The notes under the pieces: model-generated
What the model was told of the DNA's origin: nothing
Database searches by the model: none
What the model saw: the letters and a program-made list of their open reading frames with translations, nothing else
Part shown: piece by piece, positions 35,544-61,387 of the stretch
How the letters are laid out: every line of letters begins with the position of its first letter
Numbering within the stretch: position 1 is the stretch's first letter
Translations under genes and position numbers: made by a program
IMG/VR virus record: IMGVR_UViG_3300043449_002563
Span: 1-64,000 of that record
Direction: 5' to 3' (one strand)
DNA length: 64,000 nt
Source: a virus

Positions 35544-36929
35544 ATGAATAGTTCAGCAGGCGATCTTTTGCTGGCTTTTTTAGATAAAGATTCGCAAAAA
35601 ACAATCGATATAAATGTTGTCGGCGATGTAATGTTCGATGAGTATCATGAAGTTGAAGTAGAAAGAATAAGTCCTGAGTTCCCTATACCAGTATACAAAT
35701 CCAATTCAGTAGATCCATGTTCCGGCATAATTCCCGGCGGAGCCGCAAATGTTGCGTATCAATTCAAACACTTTAACGTACAGTCAGAACTTGTAGCTCT
35801 CATCAATAAAGTTGGAGAGGTGTCTTTTAATGCAAAAGGCATAAGTACTACTAATTGCAAGGTTTACAACAACATTACCATCCCAACTAAAAAAAGATTT
35901 TATTCTCAAGGCGTACCGCTTGTTCGTCACGACATTGAGAAAGAAAACTACGGGATAGATGAAATTAAGAAGTACTTGTTTGATCTACAGGTGCCAGATG
36001 CAGACTTCACAATATTTAGTGATTATTCCAAAGGATTGTTTAGCAATCCATGGTTCCGAAAGTTCATTACCAAAACCAAAAGCATAGTAGACCCCAAAAG
36101 CAGCTTTATAGACATGTGGGAAGGATGTAGCTATTTCAAACCTAATGCCTCAGAAGCTGAAAAATTGAGCGAGAAAAAGAATATCCATGATCAGCTTGAA
36201 TTTTTTATTGATAGTTTGAAATGCCAAGGGGTTGTGATTACCCGTAGTGGAGCTGGTGTCATTGGCAAAGATGATCGCAATAACACTTTCGAAGTAGTAC
36301 CAGATTTCAAACTTCCAAATCCAGAAAGTGTTATAGGTGCCGGCGACTGCTTTATATCATTTCTTACAATGGCATTGGCTAGAGGATTTAGCTTAGAGAA
36401 AGCAGCTCAGATAGCATTCGCTGCAGGTTGCTGTTATGTTAGAAAAAGGCATAACAGTCCTCTCAGTCCAGCAGAACTGTTATCATATTGTGGTGTTAAA
36501 GTAATTAACAATCCTGATATTTTGAAGCGTAGAAATTTTAAACTTGTCGCAACTAATGGATGTTTTGATGCAGGCTGCACTTTGGCTCATGTAGATTGTT
36601 TGAAATTCGCTAAAAGTCATGGTGATAAACTTCTCGTTGCTATCAATTCTGATGCGAGTGTTACAAAATTAAAAGGAAGAGGCCGGCCTATTTTACCGGC
36701 TGTAGAGAGGGCCAAGATAATTGCTGCTCTAGAATTTGTTGACTTTGTTGCTATTTTTGACGAAGACACACCTTATGAAATATACAAGAAGGTTATGCCT
36801 GATCTTATTGTTAAAGGTGGGGATTATAGGAAGAATGAAGTAGTTGGTAATGATTTGGCTGATGTTATAATATTCCCTTATGTTAATTGTGTTAGCACAA
36901 CAGAAAAGGTTAAGAAACTAGCAGATTAG
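35544..36929 (+). CDS. HldE-like bifunctional heptose-7-P kinase / heptose-1-P adenylyltransferase
   Basis: 461 residues, two domains as in bacterial HldE. The ribokinase-like domain (about 20-325) has VVGDVMFDEY, GGAANVAYQF and the catalytic GAGDCF. The nucleotidyltransferase domain (about 333-461) has TNGCFD, VKGGDY and VSTTEKV. HldE makes ADP-heptose for LPS. Oddity: the catalytic HxGH after NGCFD, normally L-H-A-G-H-V, reads G-C-T-L-A-H-V here, so the first His and the Gly are lost and one residue is added; adenylyltransferase activity is doubtful. Confidence 0.82.
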   Translation: MNSSAGDLLLAFLDKDSQKTIDINVVGDVMFDEYHEVEVERISPEFPIPVYKSNSVDPCSGIIPGGAANVAYQFKHFNVQSELVALINKVGEVSFNAKGISTTNCKVYNNITIPTKKRFYSQGVPLVRHDIEKENYGIDEIKKYLFDLQVPDADFTIFSDYSKGLFSNPWFRKFITKTKSIVDPKSSFIDMWEGCSYFKPNASEAEKLSEKKNIHDQLEFFIDSLKCQGVVITRSGAGVIGKDDRNNTFEVVPDFKLPNPESVIGAGDCFISFLTMALARGFSLEKAAQIAFAAGCCYVRKRHNSPLSPAELLSYCGVKVINNPDILKRRNFKLVATNGCFDAGCTLAHVDCLKFAKSHGDKLLVAINSDASVTKLKGRGRPILPAVERAKIIAALEFVDFVAIFDEDTPYEIYKKVMPDLIVKGGDYRKNEVVGNDLADVIIFPYVNCVSTTEKVKKLAD

Positions 36930-37702: not shown

Positions 37703-37993
37703 ATGTCAAGATTCAGTTTTGACTCAGATTATGATGATGACGAAGAAGAGCGAGATCAGGAGCGAGAGGAAAATCTTGCCGATGAACTTTTTCTTAAAGA
37801 TCAAATAATCACAGTCCAGCAAGAAAATAATGATATTCTCAAAATGGAAGTTGAACAAAAGCTAATAGAAATTTCTATTGCTGTTTGTCAAAAAAGTTGG
37901 TTCTGGTCATTTAGAAGTCTATCAAGCAAAATAAAAGCTGTTAGAAAAGTTTTTAAACAATTTAAAAATATGCTACTAAACGAAAAGTTCTAA
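37703..37993 (+). CDS. Unknown 96-aa acidic/basic protein
   Basis: Not recognised. An acidic N-terminal part (DYDDDEEERDQEREEN), a helix and a basic C-terminal part (SSKIKAVRKVFKQFKN). AAGGTGG precedes the ATG. A terminator follows. Confidence 0.65.
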   Translation: MSRFSFDSDYDDDEEERDQEREENLADELFLKDQIITVQQENNDILKMEVEQKLIEISIAVCQKSWFWSFRSLSSKIKAVRKVFKQFKNMLLNEKF

Positions 37994-38016: not shown

Positions 38017-38050
38017 AATAACCGAGGATAATGTTCTCGGTTATTTTTTT
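38017..38050 (+). terminator. Rho-independent terminator
   Basis: AATAACCGAG / CTCGGTTATT 10-bp stem, 9-nt loop, T7 run. Confidence 0.9.
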
Positions 38051-38064
38051 ATAAAGGGGTTAAT

Positions 38065-38394
38065 ATGCCTTCTTATTGTTTCCAATGTGGAAAGTGCAAG
38101 AAAGAATATAGTGATCTAGTTTCATTCGATCCAACCGGAAAGTACAAGGATACTGAATGTCCTAGCTGTGGAAGCAAAAAGAAGAAAATGCTTCTTACAG
38201 CAGCAGAATTAAAATTTTCAAATCCTACAGACACTTCGAAATTTGATAACTTTAGTTATCGTGCAGGATATAATTTAGAGGCTGCACAAGATTTGAGAAA
38301 GGCAGCCGAAGAAGTTTCGCATATGGGAACTGAACCATATGCAGACGGCATAGACGATATAAATCGTGGTGATCTGTTTGGTGAGGTCAAGTAA
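38065..38394 (+). CDS. FmdB-type zinc-ribbon protein
   Basis: 109 residues. CGKCKKEYSD and CPSCGSKKKK give a C-x2-C...C-x2-C ribbon in the first 40 residues, as in FmdB/DUF-type regulators. The rest is acidic and helical. It lies 11 bp before prkA in the same orientation, so it may belong with that set. Confidence 0.7.
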   Translation: MPSYCFQCGKCKKEYSDLVSFDPTGKYKDTECPSCGSKKKKMLLTAAELKFSNPTDTSKFDNFSYRAGYNLEAAQDLRKAAEEVSHMGTEPYADGIDDINRGDLFGEVK

Positions 38395-38405: not shown

Positions 38406-40481
38406 ATGACCACTAAGCTTGAAAAAATCTCAGCCCTGTATAACAAAGATGAATTCGTAACGATCAATGAGGAAATGAGCTTCGAGGATTACCTTGAGCT
38501 TTGCTACAAGCGTCCCAAGCTTGTAAGGACTGCGTATCAGAGAATCTATGACATGGTTATCTCCAAGGGAGTAACTGAAGTAGAGCAGTATCGCAAAGTT
38601 CTTACAAAGTACAATTTCTTCAGTGATACTCAAATTCCTATCTTTGGTTTGGAAGACACTATTGACAGGCTGATGAAGCATGTCAAAGGCGCAGCCGGTG
38701 GTTTTGGCACCGAGAAGCGTATTCTTCTGCTCCACGGTCCAGTAGGAAGTAGCAAATCAACTATCTGTCGTTTGCTGAAGAGGGGTCTTGAAAATTACAG
38801 CAAGACGGATGAAGGTGCATGGTACAGCTTTAAGTGGGTTAATTTACCTACAGGTGCCGATGGCATTTATACGAGTGAGTGCGATGACTGCCCGATGCAT
38901 GAGGAGCCGCTCAAGCTGATTCCGGCAGACATGCGTAAGACTGTTCTGGCCGAGCTAAATGAAATCCACATGCAGCAAACGCCAGAAGCGGACAGGGTAT
39001 CCCAATACAACTTGGCTATTGATGGAGAGCTTGACCCACGTTGCAAGTTTTTCATGCAACAATTGCTCAAGCGTTATAAGGGTGATTGGAAGCAGGTTGT
39101 AGACAATCATATTCGTGTTGTACGAAAGGTTTATAGCGAAGCTGATCGTACTGGTGTCGCTACTTTCCAACCTAAAGATGAGAAAAATCAGGATGCGACG
39201 GAACTTACTGGTGATATTAATTTCGCTAAGATTAGTCACTTTGGAAGCGATAGTGATCCTAGAGCTTTTAGTTTCGATGGTGAGCTATGCGTTGGCAACC
39301 GAGGAGTAGTTGAATTCATCGAAATGTTAAAATTGGAGCAGGCCTTCTTGTATGACCTTTTAGGTGCTTCACAAGAGCGTAGTATCAAGCCAAAGAAATT
39401 TAGCCAGATTACCGTGGATATGGCAATTATTGGACATACTAATCAGCCCGAATTTGAAAAGCTGAAGAACAATCAATTCATGGAAGCTTTGCGTGACCGA
39501 ACTGTCAAGATTGACGTTCCTTACCTGACTCGTTGGGACGATGAGATCAAGGTTTTAAGGCAGGACTATGATCAAGATAAGGTAAGGCAGCACATTGCTC
39601 CTCACACTATTGAGGTTGCAGCTTTGTGGGCCGTACTTACCAGATTGCAAGATGACAAGGATGGAAAGCTCAGCTTAGTAGAAAAAGCCGAATTGTATAA
39701 CGGCAAGATGATTCCCGGCTGGACGGAAGACAGTGTCAAGGAACTTCGTGACAAGTACGAAGAAGAAGGTATGAACGGCGGTGTTAGCGCCCGTTATGTT
39801 CAAGATAAGATTTCTAATTGCCTAGCAGATAGGCATGATTACATCAACCCATTTATGGTCTTGAACGCCCTCAAGGATGGCCTTGAGAATAACTCTTTAA
39901 TTACTAACAAGGATCAGGTAGTCCGTTACAACACCTGCATCGATCTTGCTAGTAAAAAACTTGATGAAATTCTCAAAGCGGAGGTGCAAAAAGCTCTAGT
40001 GGGAGATGAAGAAGCAGTTGTAAGGTTGTGCAGCAATTATATTGATAACCTCATGGCCTATATTAACAAGTCCAAGGTACGTAATCCTTACACTGGCAGG
40101 GAAGAAAGTCCAGATGAAAGGTTTATGCGTGGTATTGAAACCAAGATCGATGTGCCAGAAAACGGCGTTGATGATTTCCGGCGCATGATCGCTGCCTTTA
40201 TTGGCGAATTGGCTCACAAGGGCAAGACATTTTCATGGGATAGTAACCCTCTTCTCAAAAAGGCTTTTGAATCCAAGCTATATGAGGATACAAAAGACCA
40301 CATCAAGCTTTCTGCTTTGCATGTAAGTGGAGCGTCCGTTGTTGATCCCAAGGTTCAAGAAAAGATTGATGCAGTATCTAAGAGGCTGCAGGAAATGGGA
40401 TACAACGAGCAGAGCGCAAGGGATGTGCTTGATTATGTTGGATCCATATTCGCAAGAGGCGACTTGGCAGATCAAGACTAA
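38406..40481 (+). CDS. prkA: PrkA-type serine protein kinase (AAA+ domain)
   Basis: 691 residues, near the usual length of bacterial PrkA/YeaG. It has the AAA+ N-domain with IPIFGLEDTIDRLM and Walker A GPVGSSKST (about 108-116), NRGVVEFIEMLK, and the kinase-like C-terminal region that ends this family, including MIPGWTEDSVKELRDKYEEEG and GVSARYVQDKIS. Bacterial PrkA phosphorylates or acts on proteins in starvation and stress, and is encoded with YeaH and SpoVR. Both partners follow here. GGAG precedes the ATG. Confidence 0.9.
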   Translation: MTTKLEKISALYNKDEFVTINEEMSFEDYLELCYKRPKLVRTAYQRIYDMVISKGVTEVEQYRKVLTKYNFFSDTQIPIFGLEDTIDRLMKHVKGAAGGFGTEKRILLLHGPVGSSKSTICRLLKRGLENYSKTDEGAWYSFKWVNLPTGADGIYTSECDDCPMHEEPLKLIPADMRKTVLAELNEIHMQQTPEADRVSQYNLAIDGELDPRCKFFMQQLLKRYKGDWKQVVDNHIRVVRKVYSEADRTGVATFQPKDEKNQDATELTGDINFAKISHFGSDSDPRAFSFDGELCVGNRGVVEFIEMLKLEQAFLYDLLGASQERSIKPKKFSQITVDMAIIGHTNQPEFEKLKNNQFMEALRDRTVKIDVPYLTRWDDEIKVLRQDYDQDKVRQHIAPHTIEVAALWAVLTRLQDDKDGKLSLVEKAELYNGKMIPGWTEDSVKELRDKYEEEGMNGGVSARYVQDKISNCLADRHDYINPFMVLNALKDGLENNSLITNKDQVVRYNTCIDLASKKLDEILKAEVQKALVGDEEAVVRLCSNYIDNLMAYINKSKVRNPYTGREESPDERFMRGIETKIDVPENGVDDFRRMIAAFIGELAHKGKTFSWDSNPLLKKAFESKLYEDTKDHIKLSALHVSGASVVDPKVQEKIDAVSKRLQEMGYNEQSARDVLDYVGSIFARGDLADQD

Positions 40482-40489
40482 TAAAAGTA

Positions 40490-40556
40490 CCGTTTCGCAG
40501 ACGGAATCTATTTAAAGCTTGGGGAGACAAATGTCTAGGAACCAAGAATCTGCTTT
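40490..40556 (+). other. Structured intergenic segment after prkA
   Basis: Nested inverted repeats: CCGT-ttcgcag-ACGG (40490-40504); AGAC-aaat-GTCT (40525-40536) enclosed by CTTGG/CCAAG (40518-40546), itself enclosed by AAAG/CTTT (40514-40556). Just before the next Shine-Dalgarno. It may be a processing or translational control site in the prkA transcript. Confidence 0.4.
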
Positions 40557-40571
40557 ACAAAGGAGATGATC

Positions 40572-40781
40572 ATGGGTGTATGTAAGAAGAACAACAAGAA
40601 CAATCTTCGCTTGTTAGAAGAGATCGATGATGTTATGATGGAGTCTTGGGCTCAAGGATTTGACTTGGGCCAAGCCATCGACACCATGCCAAATTATTTA
40701 AGGGAAGCTTTCCTTAAGTTTTCGTTTGGCACTCCGGTGAAAACCGACGATGGCAGTTATGTCATCACCCTTAGGCCATAA
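40572..40781 (+). CDS. Unknown 69-aa protein in prkA-spoVR cluster
   Basis: Not recognised. MGVCKKNNKNN start, then a helical acidic protein (LLEEIDDVMMESWAQGFDLG). AGGAG lies seven bases before the ATG at 40572; the ATG six bases earlier is too close. It sits between prkA and the DUF444 gene, so it may modulate them. Confidence 0.65.
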   Translation: MGVCKKNNKNNLRLLEEIDDVMMESWAQGFDLGQAIDTMPNYLREAFLKFSFGTPVKTDDGSYVITLRP

Positions 40782-40789
40782 GGTGCAAC

Positions 40790-41137
40790 ATGCTCGGAAT
40801 CCTCCTTTCTGCCTTGTTTCAATTTGTTCTTCTTAACAACTTGGATAACAGAAAGGAGTATTCCGGAAATGTTTTTCACACAGAGTCTTACTCTGAGTTC
40901 TATGGAAGCTTGGATCAGGATGAATCCGGAAACTTTGTATTTTATCATGTGCCGTCTGGTGTGATTAAACCAGCAGTAATTTTCAAACATCAAATGACAT
41001 TTGTAAAACGCAGCGACCGTATGAAAGCTTTGAAAAATGTTGGTAAAAATGTTAGAATTAAAGGACAAATTTTAAAAACAGAAGATTTTGAAATCCTTAT
41101 CGTAGAGAGTATAGATATTTTGCAATTAGAAATTTAA
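40790..41137 (+). CDS. Unknown 115-aa protein in prkA-spoVR cluster
   Basis: Not recognised. A short hydrophobic N-terminus (MLGILLSALFQFVLLNN) could be a membrane anchor, followed by a beta-rich domain with an OB-like ending (KNVRIKGQILKTEDFEILIV). AAGGTG precedes the ATG. Confidence 0.65.
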   Translation: MLGILLSALFQFVLLNNLDNRKEYSGNVFHTESYSEFYGSLDQDESGNFVFYHVPSGVIKPAVIFKHQMTFVKRSDRMKALKNVGKNVRIKGQILKTEDFEILIVESIDILQLEI

Positions 41138-41168
41138 GCTCACATATCTTATCGAAAGAGGTATCCCA

Positions 41169-42359
41169 ATGTGTCCTCGCCGTATTGAAGAAGATCACAA
41201 CAGTTTTAGAGATGTAGTTTCTGGTAAAATAAGAAAAGCTTTGAAAAAGTTCGTTAAGAACGGTTCTATGTTCAAGAACCGTGGCAAAAACGGCAAAGTA
41301 CAGATAACCATTCCCCGTATTGATATTCCTCACATTGTTTACGGCGATAACAATTCGGGCGTTGGTAGAGGTAATGTAAAAAAAGGCGATGTAATAGGCA
41401 AAGATGATCCTAAAAACGGCAAAGGCAATCAAGCTGGGGAGGATGAAGGAGAAGGCATCGTCATTAATCTTGACATGGAAGAACTTCTTCAGTTCATGCA
41501 AGAAGAGCTACAGCTGCCTAATCTACAGCCTAGAGAAGATGATGTAATTGATGAAGTAAAAATTAAATACAACAACATAAGTCTAGTTGGCCCAGAAAGC
41601 CTTAGACATACCAGAAGAACCATGCTTACAGCCTTAAAAAGGTTATGCAGTACTGGAGAGATAAACAAGTTACATCACATTCCCGGATTCAAAGATCCGG
41701 TGAAATTGATTACTCCTATTAACAGCGATAAACGCTACAGGCAGCATAAAGAAATCAAAATGCCTAGTAGCAATGCCTTGATTATATACGCAAGAGATGG
41801 CTCTGCGTCTATGGATGAAACAAAGTGTGAAATAGTTTCTGATATGGCTTGGTGGATAGACGTTTGGATAAAGAGATTTTATAAGCGCACGGAAAGATTT
41901 TTTGTTTGGCATGATGTTACTGCACAGGAAGTGTCAGAAGATAAGTTCTACAAGTACAGGTATGGCGGCGGAACAACTTGCAGCAGTGCATTAAAGCTTA
42001 TTGCAAAACAATTTGAGAACAGATTCCCACCAAAGAAATGGAACATTTACGTGTTCTATTTCACCGATGGAGAGAATCAGTACAATGATAATCCTGAATT
42101 TATCAATGTGCTTAAAGAAAAGTTTGGAACAAATACGGTAAATCTTTTCGGCGTTACGCAGATAAATGCTTATGATTATAGAAACAGCGTCATGGAAGCA
42201 GTAGACACAGCTATTGTTGACAATGTTCTTGAAGACAATGTCAAAACTACTGACATTAATGCAAATAACCTGAATCCAGAAGATAGAAGCAAAACCATCC
42301 TAGAGGCCATCAGGCAACTCATGGGAGCTAAGGGTTCGAGCAAGCTTGGGAGCGAATAA
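41169..42359 (+). CDS. yeaH: YeaH/YhbH family protein (DUF444, VWA-like)
   Basis: 396 residues. It opens with the DUF444 pattern RRIEEDHNSFRDVVSGKIR and has PRIDIPHIVYG. The von Willebrand A-like core has YARDGSASMDETKCE (D-x-S-x-S metal site, about 207-220), a GGGTTCSSAL segment and FYFTDGENQY. In bacteria this is the partner of PrkA and SpoVR. GAGG precedes the ATG; SpoVR begins the base after its stop, so the pair are co-translated. Confidence 0.9.
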   Translation: MCPRRIEEDHNSFRDVVSGKIRKALKKFVKNGSMFKNRGKNGKVQITIPRIDIPHIVYGDNNSGVGRGNVKKGDVIGKDDPKNGKGNQAGEDEGEGIVINLDMEELLQFMQEELQLPNLQPREDDVIDEVKIKYNNISLVGPESLRHTRRTMLTALKRLCSTGEINKLHHIPGFKDPVKLITPINSDKRYRQHKEIKMPSSNALIIYARDGSASMDETKCEIVSDMAWWIDVWIKRFYKRTERFFVWHDVTAQEVSEDKFYKYRYGGGTTCSSALKLIAKQFENRFPPKKWNIYVFYFTDGENQYNDNPEFINVLKEKFGTNTVNLFGVTQINAYDYRNSVMEAVDTAIVDNVLEDNVKTTDINANNLNPEDRSKTILEAIRQLMGAKGSSKLGSE

Positions 42360-43970
42360 ATGAGCAACAAATTTATGTATGGCAGCCCTATTCTTATGGG
42401 CAGCAATACAACGCCCGGTGTCCAAATACCACCGGAATTGAAGCGTGTCATACCTGATATTTTCAAAGCCTGTCAGGAATTTGGTTTAGATTATTACGCT
42501 CCTATTATCCAAATGCTCACCCATGACGAAATGTCAGAGGTTGCCAGCTATGGCGGTTTCGGCGTTCGTTATCCACATTGGAAATGGGGCATGGAATATG
42601 AAGAGATGCAGCGTGGCTATATGCACGGCATGCACCGCATTTATGAAATGGTCATCAATTGTGATCCTTGTTACATCTATTGTTTGAACAGCAACACCTT
42701 ACTGGATAATGTCACTGTAATTGCCCATGCCTTGGGTCATTCACACTACTTTAAAAACAATTTGTTCTTCAAACACACCAATAAAAACATGCTCAATGAG
42801 TTCGCTAATCATGGAACTCGTATTAGGCGTTATATGAGCCGCTGGGGCAAGGAAAGAGTTATAGAATTTATTGACAACGTTTTAAGAATAGAAACTTTAG
42901 TTGATAATGCCAAAGCATGGAACCAAAGAGAAATCAAGCAACCTGTAATTAGAGATCAAAGGAAGTACCGTCAACCAAAACGCATGCAGACAGATAAATC
43001 TCGCATGTACATGGATGATTGGATTAATACTAAGGAATTTCTTGAATCAGAACATAGAAAAATTGAGAAAGCTGAAAAAGCTGATGATTTAGGTCTTATG
43101 CTAAGGCCTGAAAAAGATATTTTTGGCTGGATTAAAGATAATGCAAATTTGAAGCCTTGGCAAGCCGACATCATGAGCATGTTGTATGACGAGGCTATGT
43201 ATTATGCTCCGCAAGGCGCTACTAAAGTCGCCAATGAAGGATTTGCTAGTTACTGCGATTATAAATTGATTGCAGAGCAGGGTTTGTGCGCTTTAGGCCA
43301 ACCATCGCATGACCACGGGATTGTTGAATATGCCAAACACAAAATGGGCGTCTTAGGAGGAAAATATAGTACCAATCCTTATAAGCTAGGCTTCTGCATG
43401 CTTTTAGATATAGAAGAAAGATGGAATAAAGGCATGTTCGGCAGCGAATGGGATAACGTTGCTTCCTACAAGGAAAAAGAAAATTGGGATCAGAAGTTGG
43501 GTTTAGGAAAAGATAAAGTCTTTGAGGTCGTAAGAAATTACGATGACGTAAATTTGATCAACGAATACTTCGATCAAGATTTCTGTGATAAATATCAGTT
43601 TTTTGATTGGGAAAAGCAAGAGAACGGAGAGTATGTAGTTGCAAGTAAGGATGCCAAACAAATCAAGAAGAAGCTTATTGAAAAGCATGCAAACCGTGGC
43701 TTGCCTATGATTTCGCTTGTTGATTCAAATCATTTGGGCAAAGGAATTATGTTACTTGAACACAAGTGGACAGGACGTACACTTTACAATCCTTATGTTA
43801 ATGAAACTCTTGTATCAATAAATTTCCTAACAGGAAGACCTGTACTTTTGGCTTCCAAAAAGAAAACTGGCGAGGAAATCATATTTTATTGTGAGGGCTT
43901 TGGTGATTCACAGGTTCATCAGCTTACAAGAGAACAATATCGTAGAGAATTTGGAATTACACAAAAATAA
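42360..43970 (+). CDS. spoVR: SpoVR family protein
   Basis: 536 residues, the usual length of SpoVR/YcgB. Conserved features: FGLDYYAPIIQMLTHDEMSE, YGGFGVRYPHWKWGMEYE, VIAHALGHSHYFKNN (about 121-135) and WQADIMSMLYDEAMYYAPQG. SpoVR is linked to spore cortex formation and cell envelope or stress functions. It starts one base after the YeaH stop. A terminator follows 70 bp downstream. Third member of a complete PrkA-YeaH-SpoVR set. Confidence 0.92.
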   Translation: MSNKFMYGSPILMGSNTTPGVQIPPELKRVIPDIFKACQEFGLDYYAPIIQMLTHDEMSEVASYGGFGVRYPHWKWGMEYEEMQRGYMHGMHRIYEMVINCDPCYIYCLNSNTLLDNVTVIAHALGHSHYFKNNLFFKHTNKNMLNEFANHGTRIRRYMSRWGKERVIEFIDNVLRIETLVDNAKAWNQREIKQPVIRDQRKYRQPKRMQTDKSRMYMDDWINTKEFLESEHRKIEKAEKADDLGLMLRPEKDIFGWIKDNANLKPWQADIMSMLYDEAMYYAPQGATKVANEGFASYCDYKLIAEQGLCALGQPSHDHGIVEYAKHKMGVLGGKYSTNPYKLGFCMLLDIEERWNKGMFGSEWDNVASYKEKENWDQKLGLGKDKVFEVVRNYDDVNLINEYFDQDFCDKYQFFDWEKQENGEYVVASKDAKQIKKKLIEKHANRGLPMISLVDSNHLGKGIMLLEHKWTGRTLYNPYVNETLVSINFLTGRPVLLASKKKTGEEIIFYCEGFGDSQVHQLTREQYRREFGITQK

Positions 43971-44036
43971 TTTGAATTTTAATTCCAAATGGATATAATA
44001 ATGTAACAAGAAAGATTAAAACATGTAGGCGAATTA

Positions 44037-44076
44037 GCCTCCCCAGTTACAGGTGTTGACTGGGGAGGCTTTTTTT
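44037..44076 (+). terminator. Rho-independent terminator
   Basis: GCCTCCCCAGT / ACTGGGGAGGC 11-bp stem, 11-nt loop, T7 run; end of the spoVR transcript. Confidence 0.93.
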
Positions 44077-45293: not shown

Positions 45294-45327
45294 AGATAGT
45301 AGGTTTTGAACACCTACATCTTCACAC
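45288..45327 (+). repeat. Imperfect 15-bp inverted repeat spanning HNH stop and polymerase start
   Basis: GTGTGAAGAT (45288-45297) pairs with ATCTTCACAC (45318-45327); inner TAGGT/ACCTA pair around a 7-nt loop. It contains the GTG start codon (45290) of the polymerase N-half and its first His codons. Confidence 0.75.
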
Positions 45328-46679
45328 TGACATACTGCCCCCGGCATAATTCAATGCCGGGGGCGCAAGAATATAGTCTTCTCGATGGATTTGGCCAGTG
45401 TGAAGAATATGCCGATCATTGGCATCACCATGGGAATTTTATTTGTGTAAGTGACCATGGAATGATGGGTGCAATACCCAGACAAATAAAAGCATGTGAG
45501 TCTATTAATGACAAGCATGGCAAAAATAAATTAACTCCTCTCTTCGCATGCGAGCTGTATGTTAATAAGGCGCATTTTGAAGCTACTCCAACAGAAGAAT
45601 CTAGAAAAGCCTTCGTTGAGAGACTTGACCCTGAGCAGCTGGCTGATTTTAAAATAAGAGGGAATCATTTATTAGCTATTGCACTGACCAACGAAGGTTA
45701 TCAGAATCTTGTGCGATTATGCAGCTGGGGGCATCTAAATGGATTCTATGGAAGGCCAAGGGTCAATTATGAGGTGCTTAAGGCTCACAAGGCGGGACTT
45801 GTTTTTACAAGTTGCTGCTACGCCTCTGAAATTGGTCGTACTTTCGACACCAAAGGTGAGGAAGCCGCTGAGGAAACTCTTAAGGTTTATATGGAAATGT
45901 TTCGGGGGCAATTTTATCTAGAAATCATGATGCTTGATTTCCCTAAGCAAAAACCCTATGACAAATTCATTATAAAGATGAAAGAAAAGTATGGTCTGCC
46001 TATTATATTAACCCAAGATTGCCATTATTGTAAACAAGAAGACAGCCATTATCAACGCTTGATGCTCATGGTGCAAACTAAAAGAACCTTGCCAGAGCTT
46101 GAAAAAGCTATGAAGGAAAATGAATTTCAGGATTTTTTTGAGTTGCAGGATCAAAACCTCTGGATGAAAAGCGAAGAGGAATTGAATTCTTTTTGGCTGG
46201 AAAAATATACTGATATTATTCCTCTGGAGATTTTTGAGGAAGCAAAAAAGACTACTGTAGATATTGCGAGAATGGCGAATGTCACTATAGATCGGAGCCT
46301 CAAGTTTCCTACTTTTCCTGAAGAAGGAGCAAAATTACTAGATTTAATAGTCCAGAGCTGTAAGAAGCGCAACATTACTTTGAATAAAGAATACAAGATG
46401 CGTTTGTATGAGGAATATGACATCATTACCAGAAAAGGTTTTGCTAGTTATTTTATAGTGCAGAAAATGATGGCAGACGAAGCCAGACGTATTTTGCCGG
46501 AATTGATTTTGGGATCAAATGGCAGAGAAGCTATTGGACCGGGCAGAGGCTCGGGAGCCGGAAGCTTGATCCTTTACCTTTTGGGTGTCACTGATGTTGA
46601 TCCGATCAAACACGGACTTTTATTCAGTAGATTTTTGTCTGAAGCTAGAGGTGGCAAGCAAATAAAATTGCGGTGGTAG
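45290..46679 (+). CDS. dnaE: DNA polymerase III alpha, N-terminal part (PHP and partial palm), frame-interrupted
   Basis: Starts at GTG 45290 with AAGGG six bases upstream and encodes VKIVGFEHLHLHTD, the first PHP metal motif, then reaches a TAA at 45347. The frame resumes at +1 and continues EYSLLDGFGQ..., the next PHP residues, through ICVSDHGMMG, the AIGPGRGSGAGS palm motif and ending FSRFLSEARGGKQIKLRW. The catalytic PDxDxD part is in a separate gene (48021-50552). A 40-nt hairpin segment (45332-45371) breaks the frame. Full product requires frameshift or bypass; otherwise a shorter start is used. Confidence 0.8.
45332..45371 (+). other. 40-nt hairpin insertion in the PHP motif
   Basis: Removing these 40 nt joins HLHLHTD to YSLLDGFG, the expected conserved PHP sequence, and restores one frame. 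It contains a perfect 10-bp hairpin, CCCCCGGCAT / ATGCCGGGGG with a 6-nt loop, and an in-frame TAA inside the 5' arm and loop. Its edges are ambiguous by a few bases, because GAC before and GAA after both fit the D/E position. Confidence 0.8.
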
Positions 46680-48020: not shown

Positions 48021-50552
48021 ATGGAGCGTCTTCGTTTAATTATTTCTGAAAGAAAAGATCAGTACGCAGAATTGAAAAATCACTCTAATTTTGAGAAAAG
48101 ATTACGTTGGGAATTGATTGAAATAGAAGTTCAAGATGAAGAAAAATATTTCTTGGACATGTTTGAAAACAATGAGAAAAAGCCTAACCCACATAATTTA
48201 CTTATTCCTGTGCTACTAGGAATTTGCGAGAGTGTAGATTTAAACAAAGAACCTTTATACAAAATAGGTGATTTCCCTGATGTAGACGTTGATTATTTAC
48301 CACCGGTTAGAGATTATCTAAAAAACACATGGGCTCCACTCACGTTCGGCAAGGAAAATGTTTGCAGCATTGGTAATTATGGCACATTTGGCTTGAAGAG
48401 TAGCCTGATAGACATGGCCAGAGTGCATGGCTATGATAGGAATGAAATACTTAAAATTACTACAAATATTGGACTTAAAGATGATGAAGGTCAAGTATTG
48501 ACTTTTGATAAGGCCTTGGAGTTATATCCTGAACTCAAAGCATATTTAGATGACCATCAAGATGTAGAAGTGGCCGTGAGAAAGCTTCTGCACAGAAACC
48601 GCAGCATGGGCAAACATGCTGGGGGTCTTATTATATGCAATAGTAGAATTGACAACTTTGTCCCCTTGGTTAGAGGGACAGATGGAAGTCCTGTTAGTTC
48701 TTGGGTAGAAGGTCTGCATGGACAAGATTTAGGACCTGTAGGTCTTATTAAGTTTGATTTACTTGTGGTTGACGGACTGTATCAGGTGGCTTTAGCTACA
48801 AGATATGTTAAAGAACGCCATAAATTGAGTTCTGTGTGCGCTCTGGAAGGAGATTGGGACTGGAGCGACACTTCTTACCTGAATGATCCAGATAGCCTTT
48901 CTATGGCTAATGAAGGTGATTTAAAATGCATATTTCAGTATGACAGTGATGGTATTCGTGCATTGGCTACCAAAGGTGGAGTTGATGGGTTTGAGGACTT
49001 GGTTGCTTACGTAAGCCTATATCGTCCAAGCTGCTTGATGATGAAAATGGACGAGGAGTTTGTCGAAAGAAAGCGTGGGCGTAAACTTTATGAAGTGCCA
49101 GAAATCTTAAAAAGCGCCTTGGACAAAACCTACGGGGTTTTGATTTATCAAGAGCAGGTTATGCAGATTTTGAACATAGTTGGCAAAATTCCTCTTAGGG
49201 ACTGCTATCAAGTAATCAAAGCTATATCTAAGAAAAAAGTAGATGGGTTTAAAAAATATAAAGAGAAGTTTATTGAGAATGGACAACAGACATTAAATAA
49301 AAGCGCCAAGGAAATGGACGAATACTTTCAGCTTATTGAAAGCTTTGCTGGTTACGGCTTCAATGCAAGTCATGCGACGGCGTACAGTTATATTTCTGCT
49401 AGGCAATTGTACCTGAAATCGCATTACCCCCTTGAATTCTTTACGAGCAGTTTGCAGTGCCAAGATAACGAAGAAAAAAGAAGAGATTATATTACAGAGG
49501 CTTTAAACCATGGTGTTAATGTCAAGGGGTTGGACATTAACAAGTCCAAACAAACATTTGATATAATCGATGATACAATCTATATTGGATTCGGTAATGT
49601 TAAAGGTATTGGCGAAGATAAGGCAAAGAGGATCGCTGAATTGCAACCTTATGCCGGTTTCGAAGACTTTTTGGAACGTTATGGTACTGAAGCCGGCACA
49701 GTCAAACCATTGATCGGATTAAGAATATTTGGGGACAACGTCCAAGATCAATATGCTTACTGGCTTAAGTTTACCGAAGTGAGGAAGCAAATCAAGGATA
49801 AAGACAAAAGATTTGAGAACAATATAAAAGAAATACTTGCTAAATTAGTAGAAATTTTACCTTCTTCTATGCGTAATGCCTTGTCCAAAGTGGCAAGATT
49901 AGAGCAAAGAATTTTTGATGTCGTAATAAGTCATGTAGAAAAGCTGAATGATGCAATCTTGCTTTCTAAAGTTAAAGAACTGCAAAAGAAATTTGCTGGT
50001 GCCACAACCAGATACGCAACTAGTCAAACCAAGGTTGAGATGCCTAAATTAGGATTAGTAAAACTTGAGGATTGCAAGGAGGTTGATGAAAAATTTGTAA
50101 AAGCTATAGCTGATAAAGAAGAATGTGAAGTGGCATATTATGGGTTTGTTTGGTCGAACAAGGTTAGGGAATTTGCAAAATATAAAGGTGGTTTCAATTT
50201 TGATTTGGCCAAACGTAAGAGCATAACCAATCCCAAGCCATATTACATGATTTACGGGGTGGTTCAGTCTTGCACATTGAAAAGTTTCAAAAACGGCAAC
50301 GGCAAATATGCAAGTTTAGAACTGATGGATGATAATTTGCAGACAAATAAGGTTACTATTTGGGAGGATGATTATATTATATTTAAAGAAGATTTAAAAA
50401 AGGGAAACTTTATTAGTATACAGGTCACTGTGTCTACTAAAGGATATCAGGGTTTTACTCTGTTTGGTCCACCGAGACACAAGAGGCATACTCTTCCTGC
50501 AAAACGTTACGATACAAGACTGGTAGTTTTAGAGGATGTTTCAAATGTCTGA
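48021..50552 (+). CDS. dnaE: DNA polymerase III alpha, C-terminal catalytic part
   Basis: 843 residues. After an ~85-residue lead comes the catalytic PDVDVDY (86-92). Further family motifs: GKHAGGLIICN, KFDLLVVDGLYQVA (third catalytic Asp region), YRPSCLMMKMDEEFVERK, KTYGVLIYQEQVMQI, NASHATAYSYISARQLYLK, and a helix-hairpin-helix GFGNVKGIGEDKAKRIAE. The C-terminus is OB-fold-like (YYMIYGVVQSCTLKSFKNGN). GGGAG precedes the ATG. Together with the N-part it would make the replicative polymerase as two chains. Confidence 0.9.
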   Translation: MERLRLIISERKDQYAELKNHSNFEKRLRWELIEIEVQDEEKYFLDMFENNEKKPNPHNLLIPVLLGICESVDLNKEPLYKIGDFPDVDVDYLPPVRDYLKNTWAPLTFGKENVCSIGNYGTFGLKSSLIDMARVHGYDRNEILKITTNIGLKDDEGQVLTFDKALELYPELKAYLDDHQDVEVAVRKLLHRNRSMGKHAGGLIICNSRIDNFVPLVRGTDGSPVSSWVEGLHGQDLGPVGLIKFDLLVVDGLYQVALATRYVKERHKLSSVCALEGDWDWSDTSYLNDPDSLSMANEGDLKCIFQYDSDGIRALATKGGVDGFEDLVAYVSLYRPSCLMMKMDEEFVERKRGRKLYEVPEILKSALDKTYGVLIYQEQVMQILNIVGKIPLRDCYQVIKAISKKKVDGFKKYKEKFIENGQQTLNKSAKEMDEYFQLIESFAGYGFNASHATAYSYISARQLYLKSHYPLEFFTSSLQCQDNEEKRRDYITEALNHGVNVKGLDINKSKQTFDIIDDTIYIGFGNVKGIGEDKAKRIAELQPYAGFEDFLERYGTEAGTVKPLIGLRIFGDNVQDQYAYWLKFTEVRKQIKDKDKRFENNIKEILAKLVEILPSSMRNALSKVARLEQRIFDVVISHVEKLNDAILLSKVKELQKKFAGATTRYATSQTKVEMPKLGLVKLEDCKEVDEKFVKAIADKEECEVAYYGFVWSNKVREFAKYKGGFNFDLAKRKSITNPKPYYMIYGVVQSCTLKSFKNGNGKYASLELMDDNLQTNKVTIWEDDYIIFKEDLKKGNFISIQVTVSTKGYQGFTLFGPPRHKRHTLPAKRYDTRLVVLEDVSNV

Positions 50553-58235: not shown

Positions 58236-58760
58236 GTGATTTTAAATAGTAAAATTCGTTATCGTTTGAATTATCAGATTAGGTGTCCAGAAGTAAGAGT
58301 TTACCAAGAACAAAAACAATTAGGCATTATGTCAATCGAGAGAGCTAGGGTATTGGCTCATGACCAAGGTTTAGATTTGATAGAGGTTACTCCAAGAGCT
58401 AATCCGCCCGTTTGCATGATTGCCGATTTTGGTCGTTTGAAGTACGAAAGTAAAATCAGGGAAAAAGAACTAGCAAAGAAACAAAAAGAGGCAATCCAAG
58501 AACTAAAAGAAGTTCGTCTTACGCCTACAATTGCCGAGCATGATATCGAATACAAGGCAAAGAATATTGAAAAGTTTTTGACTTCAGGAAAAAAAGTTCA
58601 ATTAACAATGAAATTCAGCCCAAGAGAATTAGCACACAAAGATATTGGCTTGGCTACAATTAATACGGTAATTGAAAAATTTAAGGAAATTTCAATAATC
58701 GAACAAGCTCCAAGGTTCAATGGCCGACATTTGAACTGCTTGCTCGCCCCCAAGGGTTAG
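58236..58760 (+). CDS. infC: Translation initiation factor IF-3
   Basis: 174 residues, full length. The N-domain has YQIRCPEVRVY and GLDLIEVTPRANPPVCMIAD; the linker is Lys/Glu-rich; the C-domain has EVRLTPTIAEHDIEYKAKN, KVQLTMKFSPRELAHKDIG and ends in a basic strand. IF-3 controls start-codon selection on the 30S subunit. It begins with GTG preceded by AGGAG. Together with bS21 it gives the phage two 30S-subunit factors. Confidence 0.94.
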   Translation: MILNSKIRYRLNYQIRCPEVRVYQEQKQLGIMSIERARVLAHDQGLDLIEVTPRANPPVCMIADFGRLKYESKIREKELAKKQKEAIQELKEVRLTPTIAEHDIEYKAKNIEKFLTSGKKVQLTMKFSPRELAHKDIGLATINTVIEKFKEISIIEQAPRFNGRHLNCLLAPKG

Positions 58761-60042: not shown

Positions 60043-60417
60043 ATGGCAAAGAAGGAAGAAAAGTGCGAAGAAGGCACTTGCTGCAAGTCTAAATGCTCCG
60101 GTCAATTTAAGGTACCGGATGAAATTCCTCCAGTTACAGGCGTTAAACCCTGTGGAGCGCAAGTATTATTGGAGCTTCTGACTGTCCAAGAAATGATGGG
60201 CACCAAGCTTATTCTGAAGAATAACCAGCAATCTCATGCAGAGTATCAGGCCTATGTTATAGCCGCAGGCCCCACGATTGATCTGAGCATTTACGGCTTT
60301 AAGGTTGGCGACAGAGTATTGTTGTCTGGTAATGGGACACCAGTTCCTAACTATGACAATAGCGAGCGTGAGCGCATTTTGATGGACCCTTTTGCGATTA
60401 AGGCAGTTCTCACATAA
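60043..60417 (+). CDS. GroES-like co-chaperonin
   Basis: 124 residues. After a Cys-rich N-terminal extension (EEGTCCKSKCSG), the Cpn10 core has VKPCGAQVLLELL, an expected mobile-loop region (VQEMMGTKLILKNNQQSHA), AYVIAAGP and KVGDRVLLSGNGTP. Likely caps host GroEL to fold phage proteins, as T4 gp31 does. The DnaJ gene follows by 4 bp. Confidence 0.82.
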   Translation: MAKKEEKCEEGTCCKSKCSGQFKVPDEIPPVTGVKPCGAQVLLELLTVQEMMGTKLILKNNQQSHAEYQAYVIAAGPTIDLSIYGFKVGDRVLLSGNGTPVPNYDNSERERILMDPFAIKAVLT

Positions 60418-60421
60418 TTGA

Positions 60422-61387
60422 ATGAGCGACAATCATTATGAAATACTTGAGCTAAGTCAAGATTGTAAACAAGAAGAAATTGACAAAGCTTACAAGAAAT
60501 TAGCGCTTCGCTATCATCCTGACCGAAATCCGGGTGATAGCGAATGTGCTTCTAAATTTGTTAAAATACAGCAGGCATATGACGTTTTAAAAGACCCTGC
60601 CAAAAGACGCATGTATGATATGCAGTCGCAAGGTGGTGCCATGCCACACTTTGCTCATATGCATATGCATGATATGGAAGACCTAAACATCAAGATGTCT
60701 TCAATGCTTACCTTTGAAGACTCAGTGCTTGGCACCAAGAAAACAATAAGTATTTTCAGGAAAGAACCCTGCTTTGATTGCGCAGGAGAGGGACACAAGT
60801 CTTTTAACACGTGTCCTTTGTGTAATGGAAGAGGCAGTACGATAGCCCAATTTGGCGGTATGATTCAGTTTGCAACTATGTGCCCTAACTGCCACGGTAG
60901 AGGAAAATTAGGAGTAGATAAGTGCAAAACTTGTAATGCTTCAAAATATTTAACAGGGTCTGAAACCCAAATAGAAATCGCCTTCCCTGCAGGAATAATA
61001 AATGGAATGACCTTGTCTGTAAATGGAGCAGGTCATAAAGGAAAGAATGGAAATCAGGGCAACATCTTAGTTCAGTGTAATATTGTTGAACAAAAGAAAT
61101 ATTCTCTCAAAGGTCTAGACATTTTTTTCAATTTCGAAGTAGCATTTAGTACTATGTTATTTGGCGGCACAATTGAAATACCGACTTTTGAAAATGATCT
61201 TATAGAAATTAATATACCAGCAAGAACTCAAAATTTGACTAACTTTAGAATAAAAGGCAAAGGCATGCCTGCAATAAACAACAAGATGTTGCGAGGTGAT
61301 TTAGTTGCTGTTGTGATTACCAAAGTGCCCACAGACACTGATTTTATTCCAGAGCTTCAAGGCATATTAGAGCATCATGGCATCTGA
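60422..61387 (+). CDS. dnaJ: DnaJ-type co-chaperone (J domain plus four zinc motifs)
   Basis: 321 residues. J domain with YHPDRNPGD (HPD at about 31-33). The Cys-rich region carries four C-x2-C units: CFDCAGEG, CPLCNGRG, CPNCHGRG and CKTCNASK (about 117-180), the last lacking the second Gly. The substrate-binding C-domain follows and ends FIPELQGILEHHGI. It would direct DnaK to phage substrates. Four bp after the GroES-like gene; its end overlaps the convergent tagged gene by 21 bp. Confidence 0.92.
   Translation: MSDNHYEILELSQDCKQEEIDKAYKKLALRYHPDRNPGDSECASKFVKIQQAYDVLKDPAKRRMYDMQSQGGAMPHFAHMHMHDMEDLNIKMSSMLTFEDSVLGTKKTISIFRKEPCFDCAGEGHKSFNTCPLCNGRGSTIAQFGGMIQFATMCPNCHGRGKLGVDKCKTCNASKYLTGSETQIEIAFPAGIINGMTLSVNGAGHKGKNGNQGNILVQCNIVEQKKYSLKGLDIFFNFEVAFSTMLFGGTIEIPTFENDLIEINIPARTQNLTNFRIKGKGMPAINNKMLRGDLVAVVITKVPTDTDFIPELQGILEHHGI

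Follow-up and report, generated by a model that had tools for sequence, protein, structure and literature searches.

The prkA-yeaH-spoVR genes are widespread in bacteria, where they form a stress operon that is switched on under starvation; they are poorly understood biochemically and the kinase label of PrkA is disputed. In Escherichia coli the set is represented by yeaG-yeaH, while the SpoVR homologue there is ycgB. The trio as such is already known from phages, being annotated in Thermus phages (as serine kinase, SpoVR and conserved bacterial protein) and partly reported for the jumbo Ralstonia phage RsoM2USA, in which the open reading frames ORF28 and ORF30 code for SpoVR and PrkA (PMC8504454). 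Moreover, spoVR is among the auxiliary genes recorded for viruses of a marine oxygen minimum zone (PMC8940887). Here we analyse a complete PrkA-DUF444-SpoVR set found in the IMG/VR virus record IMGVR_UViG_3300043449_002563 (69,491 bp), of which bases 1-64000 are referred to as the window. In our preferred explanation, to which we assign as a whole a probability of about 0.5, the trio is a near-core cassette of a huge-phage lineage, situated among genes of replication and nucleotide metabolism. Its products would form a remodelling machine made of an AAA+ ATPase and a von Willebrand factor A (VWA) protein which, together with a metal-site SpoVR, contributes to proteostasis or controls cell physiology in long infections.

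An earlier note, made from the letters of this DNA, had described the three genes at 38406-43970 as complete, near full length and in bacterial order. All three reading frames are indeed intact at these positions, in the same orientation and with strong Pfam matches to their families, and the order PrkA-DUF444-SpoVR is that of 53 out of 80 bacterial loci. The zinc-ribbon gene at 38065-38394 and both bracketing terminator-like sites had been overlooked. The unit consists of the following features.

38017-38045, + strand: terminator-like hairpin preceding the unit (stem of 13 pairs followed by a T-run)
38065-38394, + strand: small zinc-ribbon (FmdB-like) protein, 109 amino acids, with which the unit starts (match to Pfam Zn_ribbon_8 at 2.5e-6, under the cut-off of that family)
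38406-40481, + strand: PrkA/YeaG-type AAA+ ATPase, 691 amino acids (Pfam AAA_PrkA and PrkA; PDB 9xip_A)
40566-40781, + strand: small ORF A, 71 amino acids, likely start at 40572
40790-41137, + strand: small ORF B, 115 amino acids, function not assigned
41169-42359, + strand: DUF444/YeaH-YhbH VWA protein, 396 amino acids (Pfam DUF444; predicted VWA fold)
42360-43970, + strand: SpoVR, 536 amino acids (Pfam SpoVR)
44036-44070, + strand: strong terminator-like hairpin after SpoVR (14 pairs, 8 of them GC, and a T-run)

Relatives were searched for by scanning IMG/VR with SpoVR and PrkA, which gave 40 relatives with SpoVR and 133 with PrkA; the best 80 of the latter, i.e. those nearest the window, were kept. 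Almost all have the order PrkA-VWA-SpoVR on one strand, and trio-bearing contigs reach 459 kb. Of 11 large records, six had a recognisable terminase large subunit, which identifies these as tailed phages. So as not to count only what the trio queries select, we used an unrelated neighbour, the N-terminal DnaE (DNA polymerase III alpha) gene, as anchor and considered the 64 loci whose upstream side extends over 9.5 kb or more, the DnaE query alignment itself being derived from loci originally found via the trio. The set is present in 59 of these 64 loci and is complete wherever the contig allows: 50 carry the full set, seven are partial at the edge of a locus or contig, and in two the set lies elsewhere on the contig. 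For six of the seven partial loci the missing genes were located in other loci of the same contig; the seventh, L277, is a 17-kb fragment. PrkA and SpoVR are missing from the remaining five loci (four out of 46 after removal of near-duplicates). DnaE is kept downstream in all of these, and L322, L256 and L247 retain two or three of the upstream genes for the HldE-like protein, the 96-amino-acid protein orf37703 and the zinc ribbon. Since the flanks are kept while the three genes are gone together, the pattern is that of a cassette gained or lost as a block. Its neighbours in the lineage are HldE-like, ThyX and DnaE genes.

The origin of the trio was investigated with quick maximum-likelihood trees, one per protein, of 70 sequences including 33 representatives of this phage lineage. 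The lineage formed a single clade in all three (Shimodaira-Hasegawa-like approximate likelihood ratio test support 100 each), and the sister group was in each case composed of sequences from Myxococcota, Bdellovibrionota, Planctomycetota and Chloroflexota (support 94, 92 and 86). Patristic distances inside the phage clade correlated between the genes at 0.85-0.89. The same clade, the same bacterial sister and the correlated distances indicate that the ancestor of the lineage captured the trio from bacteria en bloc, in one transfer, and that it was then inherited jointly. Several outgroup branches are long and the bacterial sequences were chosen by similarity, so that the sister clade gives only a rough indication of the donor. 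The Thermus phages formed another clade and huge phages of 634-642 kb grouped with proteobacterial YeaG, which indicates at least three acquisitions of the trio by phages overall. When the window genes were compared with those of two relatives, 67-81% identical in protein, the observed synonymous differences amounted to 0.81-0.87 per site as opposed to 0.16-0.22 for nonsynonymous ones. Even with the saturation of the synonymous sites, these values point to strong purifying selection on the trio.

Taken with the all-or-none presence, this joint inheritance is in line with the view of the earlier note that the three genes act as one unit. The note had also named what would speak against it, and neither different sources of the three genes, nor a lack of co-occurrence in other phages, nor a loss of active-site residues was found. 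As described below, the key motifs (Walker A, sensor, MIDAS, HxxxH/NEG) are all intact.

PrkA matched the Pfam families AAA_PrkA (5.8e-81, residues 24-418) and PrkA C-terminal domain (6.1e-72, residues 425-677), both far above cut-off, and the closest solved PrkA chain, 9xip_A, aligned over residues 17-684 with an E value of 1.5e-209. The identity to bacterial PrkA is 50-55% at best. An alignment of 12 diverse members, from the window phage through Thermus phages to Enterobacter YeaG, revealed the following sites.

38736-38762, + strand: Walker A of PrkA, GPVGSSKST, residues 111-119 (G111, P112, G114, K117 and S118 invariant)
39435-39443, + strand: sensor-1-like HTN of PrkA, residues 344-346 (H344 and N346 invariant; putative role, from the AAA+ family)
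39495-39500, + strand: DR of LRDRT in PrkA, residues 364-365, candidate arginine finger (D364 and R365 invariant; putative role)

The AAA family assigned by Pfam is PrkA, and MoxR was not among the assignments for the window protein; a match of the PrkA profile to RavA in the PDB was weak and sub-threshold. In Bacillus anthracis, PrkA is required under osmotic stress and for sporulation, whereas its kinase and protease activities in vitro are negligible (PMC13001217). The kinase label of PrkA, which the earlier note had taken up, is historical and is doubtful because of this negligible kinase activity. The link to sporulation suggested there is weak as well, as phages of non-sporulating hosts carry the set; Thermus is a genus not known to sporulate, and carriage by its phages argues against a literal sporulation role. 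Hence, both 'kinase' and 'sporulation' are probably misnomers for this set.

The second protein of the trio matched DUF444 with an E value of 1e-62. Its AlphaFold2 model (predicted local distance difference test score, pLDDT, 79) has a VWA fold, with Z scores of up to 15.7 for matches to VWA domains. A Foldseek search with the model placed the VWA part of the NorQD AAA+/VWA complex at rank 4, followed by the metal-ion-dependent adhesion site (MIDAS) domains of Rea1/MDN1. All MIDAS residues are kept, D210, S212, S214, T269 and D300 being invariant in 50 sequences.

41796-41810, + strand: MIDAS motif DxSxS (DGSAS) of the VWA protein, residues 210-214

SpoVR matched its Pfam family with an E value of 2.3e-98 over profile positions 6-404 of 407, and a sequence search of the PDB gave nothing useful. 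Two motifs stand out.

42726-42740, + strand: HALGH, the HxxxH metal-site motif of SpoVR, residues 123-127
43233-43241, + strand: NEG of SpoVR, residues 292-294, with the Glu as candidate third ligand

H123, H127, N292, E293 and G294 are invariant among 44 sequences from phages and bacteria. In the copies with a recognised HxxxH motif, it reads HATGH, HAIGH or HALGH in phages and HV[YCLFTM][GA]H in bacteria, and the catalytic Glu of HExxH was never present in them. Upon structural realignment of the SpoVR model (pLDDT 86), all matches with Z of at least 5 that span the main domain were zincin metallopeptidases or the related ACE2. The zincins were LTA4H, ERAP1, M3, M32, M61, ACE, BepA and lethal factor, with LTA4H best at a Z of 9.1 over 184 residues at 4.2 Å; Foldseek itself gave no significant match. 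In conjunction with the invariant HxxxH and NEG, these matches suggest a gluzincin-like metallopeptidase fold with a candidate, gluzincin-derived metal site. As the Glu of HExxH is absent, we do not call SpoVR a peptidase.

According to our model, PrkA would be an ATP-driven AAA+ ring onto which the DUF444 protein may dock through its MIDAS metal site, acting as an adaptor or a brake. Together, the two would remodel, load or activate SpoVR, or else employ it for client recognition; SpoVR itself would bind a metal on a gluzincin-like scaffold in which the usual catalytic Glu is missing. The matches to NorQD and Rea1/MDN1 and the weak one to RavA provide an AAA+/VWA precedent. In the phage, the machine would help to maintain protein quality or to control the physiology of the infected cell, possibly in slow hosts with long infection cycles and alongside other phage-encoded chaperones. 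DnaJ is encoded in all 11 large contigs of the lineage. In the window, a divergent Cpn10 (GroES-like) gene (60043-60417) directly precedes a full DnaJ (60422-61387), a pair that is adjacent in at least three large contigs, and a translation initiation factor IF-3 with both domains is encoded at 58236-58760. A proteostasis or cell-state function thus fits the style of the genome. Moreover, at least three phage uptakes and the all-or-none block within one lineage indicate that the three proteins act together and that their function is useful in infection, which suggests that this giant-phage lineage uses the trio machine during infection. A bolder version, which we put forward as a tentative possibility, has SpoVR as a catalytically altered gluzincin, with the PrkA-VWA machine installing its metal centre or switching it. 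Huge phages of several lineages would then each have taken up the entire machine independently, as a dedicated controller of proteostasis or cell state at the infection stage.

Several points weigh against this explanation. The complex, its ATPase activity, the metal binding, the expression, the client and the role in infection are putative. Foldseek gave no significant match to the SpoVR model, a Z of 9 to zincins is only middling, and no sequence link between SpoVR and peptidases was found (hhalign against Legionella PepN gave a probability of 1.7; Pfam at E 10 listed no peptidase). The bacterial sample in the trees consisted of the 80 best matches to the phage query. Finally, the five trio-less loci mean that the set is not essential for all relatives.

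Among the alternatives, a takeover of host dormancy, the reading proposed in the earlier note, fares best, though we regard it as doubtful. Full-length, motif-intact phage copies might feed the starvation or RpoS-type response of the host, holding the cell in quiescence or releasing it. At the given identity to bacterial PrkA, however, an exchange with host subunits is uncertain, and a complete phage-owned set suggests self-sufficiency, not mimicry. A role in counter-defence or superinfection exclusion, with the AAA+/VWA machine dismantling or blocking a defence complex or shielding the infected cell, would be in keeping with a conserved all-or-none cassette of AAA+ machinery acquired separately by phages at least three times. 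We consider it unlikely, as none of the five proteins matched a PADLOC model at E 0.1, which also led us to reject a known defence system; besides, the bacterial module is a stress operon, and the phage set has replication and metabolism genes as neighbours instead of lying in a variable anti-defence island. Just as improbable is a machine that remodels structural proteins during virion assembly. Of the Thermus phages, Lalka27a has the set between portal/minor head genes and TerL, and phiYS40 has it within a few genes of TerL, but in MN1 it is found beside dCTP deaminase and SSB, and the HldE-like, ThyX and DnaE neighbours in this lineage do not fit either. That the genes are ordinary passengers, i.e. 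recently acquired from a host and of no use to the phage, or else host DNA misjoined to a virus contig, is hardly credible despite Enterobacter phage LAU1, where yeaG-yeaH at the end of the record resembles a host flank: the phage-only clade, the inteins, the strong purifying selection and neighbours conserved across dozens of virus contigs and the 595-kb LR756511 speak against it, and host contamination was rejected on account of the clade and the neighbours.

Within the unit, the zinc-ribbon gene ends 11 bp upstream of PrkA, whose Shine-Dalgarno sequence is AAAGGAG. The start codon of SpoVR directly follows the stop codon of the VWA gene, with GGGAG just before the start; this adjacency suggests coupled translation. 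The two genes abut or overlap in 35 of 59 phage loci. In the window, the trio and the zinc-ribbon gene are bracketed by the terminator-like sites 38017-38045 and 44036-44070, and a hairpin like the former occurs about 370 nt upstream of PrkA in the close relatives L043 and L047. Bracketing terminators were rejected as a lineage-wide trait, their occurrence (12 of 59 loci, compared with 37 of 310 control windows) being near the control frequency. A search of Rfam gave no match.

The zinc-ribbon family is present in 43 of 62 representative phage loci, mostly just upstream of PrkA; no such gene was found in the 80 bacterial loci. Both small genes that the earlier note had placed inside the cluster do lie between PrkA and DUF444, yet neither looks core. 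The first ATG of ORF A abuts its Shine-Dalgarno sequence, hence the likely start at 40572. Its family follows directly after PrkA in 15 of the 62 representative loci and is also kept in the trio-less loci L247, L248 and L256. ORF B was detected by tblastn only in the window virus and near-identical records, with weak phmmer relatives in near kin. Judged by this distribution, both look like accessory genes.

In relatives, SpoVR is interrupted at two sites (after residues ~101 and 296; some genes have two inteins) and PrkA at one (after residue ~286) by inteins that contain splicing and LAGLIDADG domains; carriers are L012, L032, L069, L040, L029 and others, as well as L124. The second SpoVR site is two residues past NEG. 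Inteins favour functionally critical sites. An ORF of 364 amino acids between the DnaE parts in two trio-less loci (L256, 12674-13768; L247, 12714-13808) matched a merged PrkA/SpoVR family cluster with an E value of 1e-3; this match is likely homing-endonuclease- or intein-derived.

The surrounding genes showed further peculiarities. The gene for DNA polymerase III alpha is in two parts, an N-terminal ORF (45306-46679, ~457 amino acids) and a C-terminal ORF (48021-50552, ~843 amino acids), with three small genes in between, and the split sizes recur in the lineage. Upstream of the trio lies an HldE-like PfkB kinase-cytidylyltransferase fusion (35544-36929), found in this position in 48 of the 62 representative loci; its domains suggest sugar-nucleotide synthesis by the phage. 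The protein encoded by orf37703 (37703-37993) belongs to a family located just upstream of the zinc-ribbon gene in 45 of these loci and had no match in Pfam or PHROG. Three giant ORFs (1079, 1370 and 1526 amino acids) between 2538 and 14541 contain RCC1-type repeats, one of them with F5/8 type C domains, and are possibly fibre or adhesion proteins. The record also includes homologues of DnaB, UvsX, SSB and ThyX in addition to DnaE.

The main text of the huge-phage paper (PMC7162821) does not mention SpoVR or PrkA, and no description of the three-gene cassette in huge phages was found in open-licence full texts. Neither the cassette as a trait of the whole lineage, nor the comparison loci without the trio, nor the fold reading of SpoVR thus appears to have been described in the open-licence literature searched. 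With the phage set, the function of a little-understood bacterial module can be put to the test: the Thermus phages are cultivable carriers that allow genetics in a small genome, and the residues that matter are indicated by the divergent phage sequences and by the intein sites.

Compared with known systems, the uncultured, metagenomic huge phage LR756511 (595 kb; record unannotated) has the same order of zinc ribbon, PrkA, VWA and SpoVR as the window, with identities of 68% for PrkA, 54% for VWA and 57% for SpoVR and with ~566 bp separating PrkA and VWA. PrkA, DUF444 and SpoVR are also present in the huge phages LR745206, LR756502 and LR756504 (634-642 kb), and SpoVR of LR756504 has an intein-like insert at the same site as in this lineage; these phages differ in that their PrkA goes with proteobacterial YeaG and, in LR756502, SpoVR is far from PrkA-VWA. 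The cultivated, lytic Thermus phages phiYS40, TMA, phiLo, MN1 and Lalka have all three families in one neighbourhood, although in the order VWA-SpoVR-PrkA, at ~31% identity and as a separate clade in all trees. MoxR AAA+/VWA pairs (RavA-ViaA, NorQ-NorD, CbbQ-CbbO) likewise combine an AAA+ ATPase with a neighbouring MIDAS-bearing VWA partner, whereas PrkA is from another AAA+ subfamily, has a C-terminal domain of its own and is accompanied by a third gene, SpoVR. The bacterial prkA-yhbH/yeaH-spoVR operon resembles the phage set in its families, order, close spacing and intact Walker A, MIDAS and HxxxH/NEG. In contrast to it, the phage proteins are a clade of their own, PrkA mostly comes after a zinc-ribbon gene that is specific to the phages, the set is interspersed with small genes or homing elements, and some relatives carry inteins in SpoVR or PrkA.

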